Assembly: GCA_026398815.1 (NCBI GenBank)
Contig: JAPLSA010000017.1
Location: 682,001-746,000, forward strand
Direction of reading: 5' to 3'
DNA: 64,000 nucleotides
Origin: Gammaproteobacteria bacterium
GTDB lineage: Bacteria > Pseudomonadota > Gammaproteobacteria > Nevskiales > Nevskiaceae
The position numbers and the translations under genes were made by a program. The notes beneath the pieces were generated by a model. That model saw nothing but the letters and a program-made list of their open reading frames with translations, ran no database searches and was not told where the DNA came from. Shown piece by piece: positions 7,105 to 52,632 of this stretch. The stretch's first letter is position 1. Every line of letters starts with the position of its first letter.

Positions 7105-7265
7105 CACCCCCATCTGTCCTTTCGTACCTGAGCGTTTGGCGCCTTCGGTGGCTCGCCGACCTCGCGAGCGCTCTCCAGAGTGTCCACAGCAGGCAATCCG
7201 TTGACCTGAGCGATTCCGGGGGGATTGCGCCTTCGGTGCCGGGGGTTCCGGGCTCTCTTGCCTGC
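7105..7265 (-). promoter_or_regulatory. Tandem glycine riboswitch in the gcvT leader
   Basis: Read on the minus strand, two copies of the glycine aptamer core follow each other. The first (about 7265-7186) has AGAGAG, then CACCGAAGGCGCAA, then GCTCAGGTCAACGGA. The second (about 7185-7105) has GGAGAG, then CCACCGAAGGCGCC, then GCTCAGGTACGAAAGGACAG. These order and spacing features match the known two-aptamer riboswitch. The leader lies just downstream of a -10-like TACACT at 7278-7273 and directly upstream of gcvT. Glycine binding is expected to switch the gcv operon on. Confidence 0.93.
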
Positions 7266-7360
7266 GGACGGAAGTGTAGTCCGATCGCGGGCCGGCCTGC
7301 CATCGGCGTTTCATGTTGCGGGCTCAGCATCGCCTACCTGTCCCGTCCGGAGTGTCCCCG

Positions 7361-17979: not shown

Positions 17980-19056
<1,077 letters not shown>

Positions 19057-19088
19057 GCGGCCGCGCCGTCCGACCCCCACCGCCCGCC

Positions 19089-20093
19089 ATGCGCGACCAC
19101 GACCCCGCCCTGCCGCCGCACCGCAGCGGGCGGGGTTTCCACAATCCGCCGGGCTCGCCGCGGGCACGCGGCAGCACGGCCGACTGGCTGCGTTTCCTGC
19201 GCGATGTCAGCTTCGGCCCGCGCGCGCTGCGCCAGCCGGCGCTGCCCGCCGGCCATGTGCTCGACGCGGAACAGGCCTGCGCGCAGCTGGCTGCGCAGCA
19301 CGGCCGCGACAGCTTGACCTGGCTCGGCCATGCCTGCTTCCTGATCCGCATCGATGGCCGCGCGGTGCTGACCGATCCCTACCTCAGCCCGTATGCCGGG
19401 CCGCTGCCGGGCCTCGGACCGAAGCGCTTCGCCGGCACCGGTCTGCCGATCGACCGGCTGCCGAAGCTCGACGCCATCCTGCTGTCGCACAACCACTACG
19501 ACCATCTCGATGCGGTGGCGCTGCGGCAGCTCGCCGCCGATCACCGCGACACCACATTCGTGGTGCCGCTGGGGCTGGTGCCGATCATCCGCCGGCTCGG
19601 CTTCCGCAACGTCCACGAGCTGGACTGGGGCCAGACGCATGCGGGTAACGGCCTGACCGTCACGGCGCTGCCGGCGGTGCATTTCTCGTCGCGCACGCCG
19701 TTCGATCGCAACCGCACGCTGTGGTGCGGCTTCGGCCTGCGCAGCGCCCACCATCACCTCTACTTTGCCGGCGATACCGGCTGGGGCCCGGTGTTCGAGC
19801 ACGTCGGCCAGCGCTTCGGTCCGTTCGATGTCGGTCTGGTGCCGATCGGCGCCTACCAGCCGCGCGCGCTGATGCAGGCCGTGCACGCCGATCCCGAGGA
19901 AGCCGTGCGCATCGGCCGCGCGATGCAGGCGCAGCGTCTGGTGGCGATGCACTGGGGCACCATCGCGCTGACCACCGAGCCGGCCTTCGAACCGCCGGGC
20001 CGCTTCCTGCAGGCCGCGCAGGCCAGCGGCTATGGCGACGACGATCGCTGGGTGATGCGGATCGGCGAAACCCGGGCGCTGGACCGGCGCTAG
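19089..20093 (+). CDS. Metallo-beta-lactamase-fold hydrolase (NAPE-PLD-like)
   Basis: A zinc hydrolase of 334 aa in the MBL-fold subgroup related to N-acylphosphatidylethanolamine phospholipase D and RomA-like proteins. Metal ligands lie in LSHNHYDHLD (about residues 138-147), HFSSRTPFDRNRTLWCGFG, FAGDTGWGP (Asp) and AMHWGTIALTTEP (His). There is no signal peptide. It starts 32 nt after the OYE stop and may be the third gene of that transcript. Its TAG stop lies inside the CTAG that opens the 170-bp dispersed element (20090-20259). Confidence 0.9.
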   Translation: MRDHDPALPPHRSGRGFHNPPGSPRARGSTADWLRFLRDVSFGPRALRQPALPAGHVLDAEQACAQLAAQHGRDSLTWLGHACFLIRIDGRAVLTDPYLSPYAGPLPGLGPKRFAGTGLPIDRLPKLDAILLSHNHYDHLDAVALRQLAADHRDTTFVVPLGLVPIIRRLGFRNVHELDWGQTHAGNGLTVTALPAVHFSSRTPFDRNRTLWCGFGLRSAHHHLYFAGDTGWGPVFEHVGQRFGPFDVGLVPIGAYQPRALMQAVHADPEEAVRIGRAMQAQRLVAMHWGTIALTTEPAFEPPGRFLQAAQASGYGDDDRWVMRIGETRALDRR

Positions 20094-20259
20094 CGCAGCG
20101 CACACAACAAAGCGCGAGCGATGTGGCGATGGATCGTGGTGCGAATCAAGGCGCGATGAGGAGCCATCGTTGTTCTATGGCGACGATTCGCAACGCCGCG
20201 CCGCGCCGCGCCGCGAGACACGGCACAGCACTCACGGTTTGCTGTGTGCGCTGCGCTAG
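20090..20259 (+). repeat. Dispersed hairpin element, copy 1 (MITE/REP-like, 170 bp)
   Basis: Perfect 17-bp terminal inverted repeats (left CTAGCGCAGCGCACACA) bound a 170-bp element without a coding frame. The interior holds a second inverted pair, TGCGAATC/GATTCGCA, and a small GCCAT/ATGGC hairpin. A second copy, inverted, lies at 51587-51751 and is about 90% identical by eye; a core of about 80 bp differs at one base. The left CTAG supplies the TAG stop of the MBL gene. The right CTAG supplies, on the other strand, the TAG stop of the thioesterase gene. Confidence 0.9.
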
Positions 20260-20675
20260 ACCAGCACCATCTGCGTGCAGCGGAACGATGCGATCAGCTT
20301 GCCGGCATCGTTGAACACTTCCGAATCCCAGACCTGCGTCGTGCGGCCCCGGTGCTTCGAGGTCGTCGTGCAGTGGACGTGGCCCGCCAGCGCCGTACCG
20401 AAGAAGTTGGTCTTCAGCTCGATCGTCGTGAAGCCTTTCGCCCCTTTCGGCAGGTGCGCCACCGTCGCGTAGCCGGCGCAGGTATCGGCCAGGGCCACGA
20501 TGCTGGCAGCGTGCAGGAAGCCGTTCGGCGCGTGGTGCCGGCGCTCGATCTTCATCCGGCCAGTCAGCCGGCCCTCGCCGATCTCGAGGATTTCCAGACC
20601 CAGCAGGTCCGGCAAGGTGCCGGCCTGCAGCTTCATGAATGATTCGGGGGTGATCTCGGGGCGCAGTTCGCTCAT
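20256..20675 (-). CDS. PaaI-family hotdog thioesterase
   Basis: A hotdog-fold acyl-CoA thioesterase of 139 aa, close to the PaaI/YdiI group. The long helix segment HHAPNGFLHAASIVALADT carries the conserved Asn-Gly and the position of the catalytic acid. FTTIELKTNFFGTALAGHVH and the HRGRTTQVWDSEVF strands complete the fold. The ATG at 20675 (MSELRPE) fits the family length. The upstream extension to 20924 has no family character. Its stop is the terminal CTAG of the dispersed element. The 308-bp gap 20676-20983 to the divergent alcohol dehydrogenase holds promoter space and a 15-bp tandem repeat (20874-20903). Confidence 0.88.
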   Translation of the reverse strand: MSELRPEITPESFMKLQAGTLPDLLGLEILEIGEGRLTGRMKIERRHHAPNGFLHAASIVALADTCAGYATVAHLPKGAKGFTTIELKTNFFGTALAGHVHCTTTSKHRGRTTQVWDSEVFNDAGKLIASFRCTQMVLV

Positions 20676-20873
20676 CTCGGCACTCGGGTCGTGAAGGTGT
20701 CCGGCAGGGCACGCTGCCCGCCGCGCCACATCTTGCCCCAGGCCTGCTGCCACTGCGGCGGTGTCCGCCAGCGCCGGATGGCGCGTCGGGAAAAGCACCG
20801 GGAACTGTTCCCGCGTTCGCCGACCAGACCGGCAATGCCGCCGGCAAGTATTTGATAAGTCTGGCGAGTGACA

Positions 20874-20903
20874 GTCCTGATGGGCGCTGTCCTGATTGAC
20901 GCT
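20874..20903. repeat. Tandem 15-bp direct repeat upstream of alcohol dehydrogenase
   Basis: GTCCTGATGGGCGCT (20874-20888) is directly followed by GTCCTGATTGACGCT (20889-20903), 13 of 15 bases identical. It is 80-110 bp before the dehydrogenase ATG and could be an activator site. I see nothing else definite in the 308-bp gap. Confidence 0.4.
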
Positions 20904-20983
20904 GCATCCGGCTGCCGCCTTCACTGCCCCGTCGCCGCAGCGGGGCGACGCGCAGCACCACCGGAACCATCAGGAGCATCACC

Positions 20984-50852: not shown

Positions 50853-51563
50853 TCAGGCGGGCCGCCGCAGGGCTCGCAGCTCGCGCAGCAGGCCCGGGGT
50901 ACGCAGCGAGGCCCTCGGCACATGCGGTTCCAGCGCCATCCGCATCAGCCGGCGGGCATCGTCGCGTTCGGCGGCGGTCGACAGCGTTTCGCGATGCAGG
51001 GCCAGCAGGCTGGCGCCGGCCAGCGCGGCCGGCGCATCCGGATCGCAGCGACGGAAGCCGAGGTCCGGGCGAAACTGGAAATGCGCCTGCGGATCGATCG
51101 ACTCGTCGAGCGGCAGGCCGTAGCCCAGCTGCTCGAGCAGGCGCTTCTCGAATACCCGGAGACCGGCCTCGCCGGCTGCCACGCCAAGCCCCAGCCGATC
51201 CATCGCGGTGCCGTAGTCGGCCCACAGCGCCGGGTGCGGATCGTGGCGGATCAGCAGCTTCAGCAGCAGCTCGTTGAGATACCAGCCGAGGTAGATCTGC
51301 TCGCCGGGCAGCGGCACTTCCGGACCACCGGCCTCGACGGCGGTCAAGGTGCCGAGTTCGCCTTTCTCGGCCCAGGACAGCAGCAGCGGCCGGAACGGAC
51401 CAACCACGCCGCGCTGCCGGGCGCGGGCGCCGCGCAGCCCCCGCGCCACCAGGCCGACGCGGCCGTGATCGCGGCTCAGCACTTCCAGCAGCTCGCTGGT
51501 TTCGCGGTAGGGCTTCTGCGACAGCAGCCAGACCGGCTGCAATTCGATGCGGGCGGTGGCCAC
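50853..51563 (-). CDS. recO: DNA repair protein RecO
   Basis: Recombination mediator of the RecFOR pathway (236 aa). N-terminal OB fold (about 8-80; PVWLLSQKPYRETSELLEVLSRDHGRV with the GLRGARAR loop) and a helical C-terminal domain are visible. The Cys-zinc motif of other RecO proteins is reduced here, leaving one Cys (FRRCDPDAP). It lies 184 nt downstream of era, a gap filled by the second dispersed element. Confidence 0.92.
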   Translation of the reverse strand: MATARIELQPVWLLSQKPYRETSELLEVLSRDHGRVGLVARGLRGARARQRGVVGPFRPLLLSWAEKGELGTLTAVEAGGPEVPLPGEQIYLGWYLNELLLKLLIRHDPHPALWADYGTAMDRLGLGVAAGEAGLRVFEKRLLEQLGYGLPLDESIDPQAHFQFRPDLGFRRCDPDAPAALAGASLLALHRETLSTAAERDDARRLMRMALEPHVPRASLRTPGLLRELRALRRPA

Positions 51564-51586: not shown

Positions 51587-51751
51587 CTAGTGCAACGCGT
51601 ACAACAAACCGTTAGCGCCGTGCCGTGTCTCGCGGCGCGACTCGGCGTTGCGAATCGTCGCCATAGAACAACGATGGCTCCTCATCGCGCCTTGATTCGC
51701 ATCACGATCCATCGCCACATCACTCACGCTTCGTTGTATGCGCTGCACTAG
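51587..51751 (-). repeat. Dispersed hairpin element, copy 2 (MITE/REP-like, 165 bp)
   Basis: Reverse-orientation copy of the element at 20090-20259. Ends CTAGTGCA..., with terminal arms paired over 19 bp apart from two wobble-type differences. Relative to copy 1, positions 5 and 14 change together on both arms, keeping the stem. A 5-bp CGCGC deletion distinguishes its loop side. It fills the era-recO gap. One terminal CTAG (51748-51751) contains the era TAG stop; the other lies 24 nt before the recO ATG. Confidence 0.9.
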
Positions 51752-52632
51752 CCGCCTTCGTAGCCGAAGCGACTCAACGCCTTCGGATCGTCGGTCCAGC
51801 CTTCCTTGACCCGGACCCAGAGCTTCAGGAACACCTTGCGGCCGGTCAGCGTTTCCAGCTCGCGGCGGGCGGCGGTGCCGATGCGCTTGAGCATCTCGCC
51901 GTTCTCGCCGATGACGATCTTCTTCTGGCCATCGCGCTCGACCCAGATCACCGCGCTGGCCTTCAGCAGCGCGCCTTCCTGCTCCAGCGCCTCGGTTTCC
52001 ACGGTCAGCGCGTACGGCAGTTCCTGGGCCAGCGAGCGCATCAGCTTTTCGCGCACCAGCTCGGAAATCGTGAAGCCGAGGTCATGGCCGACCACCTGTC
52101 CTTCCGGATACAGCGGCGGGCCGTCCGGCATCCGCGCCAGCAGCTGCTTGGCCAGCACGTTGACATTGGCGCCCTTGAGTGCCGACAGCGGCATCACGAA
52201 GGCCCATTCGCGCAGGGGGCTGAGCTTCTCCATCAGCGGCAGCAGCGCGTTCTTGTCGCTGAACTGGTCGACCTTGTTGATCACCAGCGCCACCGGCGCT
52301 TTGACCACCTTCAGGCGCTCCAGCACCGCGTCGTCCTCGTCGGTCCAGCGGCCGGCCTCGATGACGAACAGCGCCAGGTCGATGTCGTGCAGGCTGTTGC
52401 TGGCGGCGTCGTTCATCGCCTTGTTCAGCGCCTTCTTGGCTGCCCGGTGCATGCCCGGCGTGTCGACGAATACCACCTGGGCCTCGTCGCCGTGCAGCAC
52501 ACCCTGGATACGATGCCGGGTGGTCTGTGGCTTGGGCGCCGTGATCGATACCTTGCGGCCGACCAGGGCATTGAGGAGGCTGGATTTGCCGACATTCGGC
52601 CGGCCGACGATGGCCACGATTCCGCTACGCAT
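51748..52632 (-). CDS. era: GTPase Era
   Basis: Essential GTPase in 16S rRNA maturation and 30S assembly (294 aa). G1 GRPNVGKSS, G2 TTRHRIQG, G3 DTPG and G4 NKVD are all present, followed by a C-terminal KH domain with VIGENGEMLKRIG. It overlaps rnc by 8 nt. Its stop TAG is part of the terminal CTAG of the dispersed element, so its last residues (GYEGG) may have been set by the insertion. Confidence 0.97.
   Translation of the reverse strand: MRSGIVAIVGRPNVGKSSLLNALVGRKVSITAPKPQTTRHRIQGVLHGDEAQVVFVDTPGMHRAAKKALNKAMNDAASNSLHDIDLALFVIEAGRWTDEDDAVLERLKVVKAPVALVINKVDQFSDKNALLPLMEKLSPLREWAFVMPLSALKGANVNVLAKQLLARMPDGPPLYPEGQVVGHDLGFTISELVREKLMRSLAQELPYALTVETEALEQEGALLKASAVIWVERDGQKKIVIGENGEMLKRIGTAARRELETLTGRKVFLKLWVRVKEGWTDDPKALSRFGYEGG

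Follow-up and report, generated by a model that had tools for sequence, protein, structure and literature searches.

The window, a stretch of 64,000 nucleotides from a genome of the genus Nevskia, contains two full-length copies of a short hairpin element. We read it, with a probability of roughly 0.7, as a non-autonomous element of the MITE type that is moved in trans by an IS630-family transposase into the sequence CTAG and that carries a conserved core fold on one strand. In the proposed mechanism the inverted ends would belong to a type that IS630-family (Tc1/mariner-like) transposases bind. Such an enzyme, acting in trans by cut and paste, would insert the element into the TA of CTAG, often landing in the TAG stop codon of a gene, which would thus keep its stop. 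Between the ends would lie a conserved core folding on one strand only, the purine-rich one. The MITE-type anatomy is well supported, and the protein-less element is probably moved by the enzymes of other elements.

Both copies lie where the first-pass annotation had placed them (Table 1), and the identity that it gave as about 90% amounts to 88% over the whole element. Both are short and geneless, with no transposase inside, as it had also held. The genome as a whole contains not two but five full copies, and one end fragment. The element has terminal inverted repeats, as a MITE should, and these had been described as beginning with CTAG: the inverted ends are present, and the CTAG is the insertion site, common to the element and the adjacent stop codons. 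Each of the two copies forms one long hairpin (z = -7.47 for copy 1 and -7.28 for copy 2, against 200 shuffles each), and long imperfect hairpins were found in all copies folded. Tandem copies exist as well, with one CTAG common to both at one locus (L041) and a CCAG junction at another (L033).

Table 1. Element copies, their CTAG ends and the adjoining genes in the window
Feature	Position	Strand	Remarks
Element copy 1, full length	20090..20259	+	170 bp; folding purine-rich strand on +
Element copy 2, full length	51587..51751	-	165 bp; folding purine-rich strand on -
Conserved core hairpin of copy 1	20136..20209	+	72.4 bits with model R2
Conserved core hairpin of copy 2	51632..51705	-	74.5 bits with model R2
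Left CTAG of copy 1	20090..20093		TAG is the in-frame stop of the upstream plus-strand ORF
Right CTAG of copy 1	20256..20259		minus-strand TAG terminates the convergent ORF in frame
Left CTAG of copy 2	51748..51751		TAG terminates the Era-like gene in frame
Right CTAG of copy 2	51587..51590		
ORF ending in left CTAG of copy 1	18774..20093	+	C-terminal part metallo-beta-lactamase-fold hydrolase-like, by eye; start possibly further in
Convergent ORF ending in right CTAG of copy 1	20256..20924	-	PaaI-type thioesterase-like, by eye
Era-like GTPase gene with its stop in left CTAG of copy 2	51748..52632	-	by eye
RecO-like gene, start just past copy 2	50853..51563	-	by eye

The element is widespread. 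DNA similarity detected it in 9 of 18 genomes of the genus and 14 of 58 of the family. Further matches came from two covariance models with rough E-values: R1, covering the inner 125 positions and built from 23 copies, and R2, covering the 74-position core and built from 53 copies. R1 matched 44 of the 58 family genomes (E up to 0.001), 61 of 85 genomes of the order (1e-4) and at least 66 of 369 genomes of the class (1e-5, with up to nine candidates scored per genome). R2 matched 114 of 398 genomes in a sample of the phylum (1e-4), some of them outside the class. The highest load was 56 matches in one genome (G025). R2 had no match in 18 era-region loci without the element, and its 15 matches over 59 sources all fell within 8 plasmid or transposase loci. 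The nearly invariant core of about 80 bp described in the first-pass annotation holds, and extends far beyond the genus. That annotation had proposed the search of the genome and its relatives, and had considered that only two copies might exist, with no further covariation, or that the segment might belong to a known IS; the search returned more copies, matches across the phylum and much added covariation. A T-shaped copy described below (L164) matched five plasmid records and nothing in the phage collection. Two other copies (L067, L152) had no match in the plasmid collection, a third (L179) had none in E. coli genomes, and one exact pattern matched no viral contig. In the two annotated plasmid records examined, the element is unannotated.

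The pairing of the core is kept while its sequence changes. Fifty-three divergent copies were excised with the model and then aligned with MAFFT, ignoring structure. Of their 22 core pairs, 19 changed on both sides with pairing kept; the covariation score was 0.685 (0.185 shuffled, at most 0.134 with partners slid), and standard pairs occupied 94.8% of cells against 68.2% shuffled. This test leans towards structure, since the structure was derived from the alignment under test and a structure model had found most of the copies. Sequence similarity alone had found the 14 full-length Nevskia copies; both sides had changed in 10 of their 60 pairs, where shuffles gave 3.1 (none of 500 reached 10). 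Compensatory changes had first been pointed out at stem positions 5 and 14. The change from C-G to T-A at position 5 is real, with 2 copies carrying C-G, 11 T-A and one unpaired. At position 14 the pair is kept in the two window copies, and this example is the weaker one because the consensus fold of the 14 copies leaves positions 13-14 unpaired. Selection on a folded form, as the first-pass annotation proposed, is upheld by the strong covariation of the 53 copies. It had, however, set such selection against a MITE, and this opposition was wrong: the element is built and inserts like a MITE, with CTAG as target and with IS630-like or IS5-like inverted ends in related copies.

The core that folds is characterised by a purine-rich strand, an AAGG/AACGCNG internal loop, tandem G-A mismatches and a CATAG/CTATG-like tip stem. 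Between genera the arms vary widely, and the internal loop, the tandem G-A mismatches and the apical stem are mostly kept. In some copies (e.g. L094) a complementary middle stem replaces the G-A tandems. The folded shape has persisted in many different bacteria, which suggests that the fold itself has a function.

The mismatches indicate which strand folds. Under a scoring that treats both strands alike, the arms outside the model contained 177 G-T and 78 A-C mismatches in 66 long-armed copies. All 175 hits together gave 363 G-T against 162 A-C, 397 G-A/A-G against 90 C-T/T-C and 140 G-G against 62 C-C. These mismatch counts include some loci twice (for example L176/L188, L091/L167), ignore relatedness and contain several arm alignments running into the flank. 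The excess of G-T over A-C and of G-A over C-T points to the purine-rich strand as the folding strand. TNCG-like loops, which separate the two modules in T-shaped forms, are found on one strand or the other and so do not decide between RNA and DNA; we consider it slightly likelier that the fold acts as a hairpin of single-stranded DNA.

Of 123 one-module hits, 77 carried CTAG at one end at least (45 of them at both), compared with 20 of 729 displaced control places. The other 46 lack CTAG at the distance tested; they include T-shaped forms whose second module was left unpaired by the rule or escaped detection (for example L073, L074), as well as copies with ATAC/TATA ends. At seven loci (L093, L094, L098, L099, L103, L106 and L107) the core is bounded not by CTAG but by ends of the ATAC/TATA type, possibly a third kind of transposon end. 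The empty sites that the first-pass annotation proposed to look for gave a clear case between era and recO, where in G000 the element sits exactly at the CTAG. Twelve of 16 matching element-less relatives were aligned there; era ends in CTAG without the element in six of them (G001, G002, G003, G008, G012 and G013) and otherwise in the other six. At a second Nevskia site (L009) the relative reads GCTGAG, not CTAG, and a third (L016) was unalignable, leaving one clear empty site overall. A few copies have unequal flanks, with CTAG on the left and CTAA on the right (L083) or with TTAG and CTAA (L090), which fit a 2-bp TA duplication. An IS630-associated transposon reportedly prefers the TA of CTAG, going by the title of work by Tenzen and Ohtsubo from 1991, which PMC2170065 cites.

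The ends of related copies point to the likely mobilisers. Single hairpins frequently have CTAGTG ends, which also enclose IS630-family genes in Methylibium and, with a less perfect match, in Bradyrhizobium. The Methylibium transposase gene (NCBIfam NF033545, 249.6 bits) is flanked by CTAG-TGTCCTGTCCCGCTGATACG ends, close to those of a single hairpin (L151). A 1183-bp IS630 element sits precisely within the CTAG end of one hairpin copy in G031, a genome from the family that includes Nevskia. This element has an identical second copy in G031, and its TGTCCTTTAACAAAAGTTC ends resemble the ends of two hairpins (L088, L100). At one locus of G031 (L253, 146-2157; L235 is the same place) IS630-family and IS5-family elements adjoin with one CTAG in common, as if the CTAG end of one had served the other as landing site. 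From these sequence comparisons we infer that an IS630 transposase would move the Nevskia copies. For an IS with the Nevskia ends themselves (TA-GTGCAGCGC...), the plasmid search gave no match and the pattern search in the genus was too lax to discriminate. End-pattern searches in five genomes (G025, G010, G038, G036 and G035) recovered hairpins or lone ends, and the lone ends inspected in G025, G010 and G035 were without a matching second end. An autonomous element with the same ends in G025 was set aside, the lone ends inspected there being truncated copies or isolated ends. Truncated copies are exemplified by L112 and L119. What the element has in common with IS is the ends, and no IS containing the core was seen among the loci examined.

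Two hairpin modules can also be combined in a T-shaped form. A rule blind to module order found 23 such loci; after removal of one duplicate, the plus module came first in 22 of 22, with some second modules scoring weakly, down to 23.6 bits. T-shaped forms occur on plasmids of Azotobacter, Pseudomonas and Halomonas, with ends reading CTA-GGGTCTGTTGACG or near it, and closely similar ends bound an IS5-family gene (NF033580) on an Aeromonas plasmid. In G071, a T-shaped copy has GGGCGTGTTGAGGTTTC in common with an element of the IS5 family. Of 15 genomes searched with an IS5-family query, however, only 5 gave a match, and G048 gave none despite its T-shaped copies. The model R1, trained on single hairpins alone, also detects T-shaped modules (L072, 57.4 bits), so the core is common to both kinds of ends. 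IS5-family genes and T-shaped forms were also seen side by side. In G071 (L242, 1194-2317) an IS5-family element has a T-shaped hairpin element on one side and an end resembling that of another on the other, joined at CTAG; in G031 (L241, 1256-1437) a T-shaped module pair directly adjoins an IS5-family transposase gene; and in G035 (L243, 1501-1930) a T-shaped hairpin element directly follows the remnant of one. An IS1182 transposase beside an Azotobacter copy was rejected, as all its listed inverted repeats are without the ends.

We explored the relation of the element to its neighbouring genes. Open frames ran into its 5' side 84 times and into its 3' side 80 times in 125 hits, 5 loci having been removed beforehand as duplicates or weak. 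This balance does not support a cis-acting role in one orientation, and regulation of that kind was set aside on these counts. No flanking gene family was common to many genera among the 40 clusters listed (loci up to L111). The two largest clusters comprise 12 and 11 Nevskia loci, and their first member overlaps the element; we take them for frames running across it. Most other clusters represent one place fetched twice. Two Nevskia loci (L009, L016) are near the same genes, at different points.

Searches for known families were made with Rfam. At gathering scores nothing in the window matched over the element. At E up to 1, seven loci gave one weak miRNA match (28.9 bits, gathering score 88; L033, 1446-1481) at the junction of tandem copies, the rest lying outside the element. 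A known RNA family was accordingly dismissed for want of a credible match, and an integron attC site, with R and L boxes beside cassette genes, was set aside by inspection. Elsewhere in the window, at 7113-7270 on the minus strand, two glycine riboswitch aptamers stand side by side (RF00504).

Several explanations compete for the fold. The purine-rich strand might fold as a functional RNA co-transcribed with the neighbouring genes, for example in mRNA protection or processing or in binding a host protein, and persist because it is useful or harmless. The predominance of G-T (G-U) over A-C mismatches in the arms, the tandem G-A motifs and the location of copies at stop codons are what such an RNA would lead one to expect. 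We nevertheless find it doubtful, since orientation to the neighbouring frames is balanced, Rfam offers no credible match and T-shaped forms place one module on each strand, an arrangement better suited to a DNA element than to one transcript. An ordinary decaying MITE, with the core as ancestral inner sequence and the pairing as a by-product of palindrome correction, is improbable. Template switching in replication can copy one arm of a palindrome onto the other and so mimic compensatory change, and truncated copies do occur; but such decay predicts neither the bias towards one strand nor the conserved mismatches, and the AAGG/AACGCNG loop and G-A tandems are retained between distant genera while the surrounding arms change. 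Least probable of all, in our estimate, is a REPIN-like element, its hairpin read by the single-strand (HUH, Y1) transposase that would move it, with CTAG as a preferred target. The strand-specific fold with conserved mismatches and the T-shaped doublets of opposite modules, which recall BIME/REPIN doublets, are in its favour, yet related copies carry ends matching those of IS630 and IS5 elements, which are of the DDE type, and the flanking clusters listed contain no family common to many genera.

Within the preferred reading of a MITE-type element moved in trans, the fold may serve the spread or upkeep of the element itself, as a single-stranded DNA hairpin or as RNA, and not the regulation of neighbouring genes. 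We hold this with less confidence than movement by an IS630 transposase. A fold serving the element fits the balanced orientation, the one module per strand seen in T-shaped forms and the persistence of the core beyond changes of its ends. At less than even odds, the core may be a selfish folded nucleic acid in its own right, carried across Pseudomonadota by non-autonomous elements whose transposon ends are of two or more unrelated kinds (IS630-type in the single form, IS5-type in the T-shaped form), its folded strand being read by a factor of the host or of the element. In the usual view a MITE is a shell maintained by its ends. Here it is the inside that is conserved, and the ends differ, which reverses that view and raises a testable question: what reads the fold? 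The R2 count given above, with its rough E-values, also adds a widespread structured repeat to the sampled genomes of the phylum.

The element resembles IS630 elements and their MITEs in being small and geneless with inverted ends and a TA target, and differs in that its inner core is a one-strand fold kept across many genera while the ends change, with arms paired nearly to the tip. Correia/NEMIS and RUP elements are MITEs of the same general type. Text searches of the literature, as far as the texts were accessible, returned no description of the core, which the candidates of PMC11109978 may include; searches by the sequence words of the core returned, in the portions available, papers on osteoclasts and bone instead. 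The closest described structured repeat seen in these partial sources is the MRSC-65-2 motif, reported in the available part of PMC11109978 as a single long stem with strong covariation, dozens of copies per genome and sometimes a transposase gene nearby. The present element shares the long stem, the covariation, the multiple copies and the occasional closeness to a transposase gene. It differs in the UYCCGG repeat, conserved in MRSC-65-2 according to that part of the paper and here matched in 15 of 179 cases (either strand, within 50 bases). The present family may be among the 250 mobile or repeat candidates that the same paper mentions. MITEPsy1 of Pseudomonas syringae, as the accessible text of PMC3189936 describes it, is small, inserts at CTAG or YTAA and probably relies in trans on an IS5-family transposase (ISPsy2) for its movement. 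The IS5-family-like ends of our T-shaped members recall it; MITEPsy1 is, however, 100 nt long with another end sequence and a 4-nt duplication, and that text does not describe a conserved fold (PMC3189936). With REPINs and BIMEs, in so far as the available parts of PMC3116915 and PMC2817692 present them, the element has in common non-autonomous hairpins and doublets in opposite orientation, whereas it is 165-265 bp long and has DDE-type ends. IStrons, on the accessible portion of PMC4227781, likewise join one structured nucleic acid to different IS families; the element described here differs from them in having no known intron fold and no transposase gene of its own.
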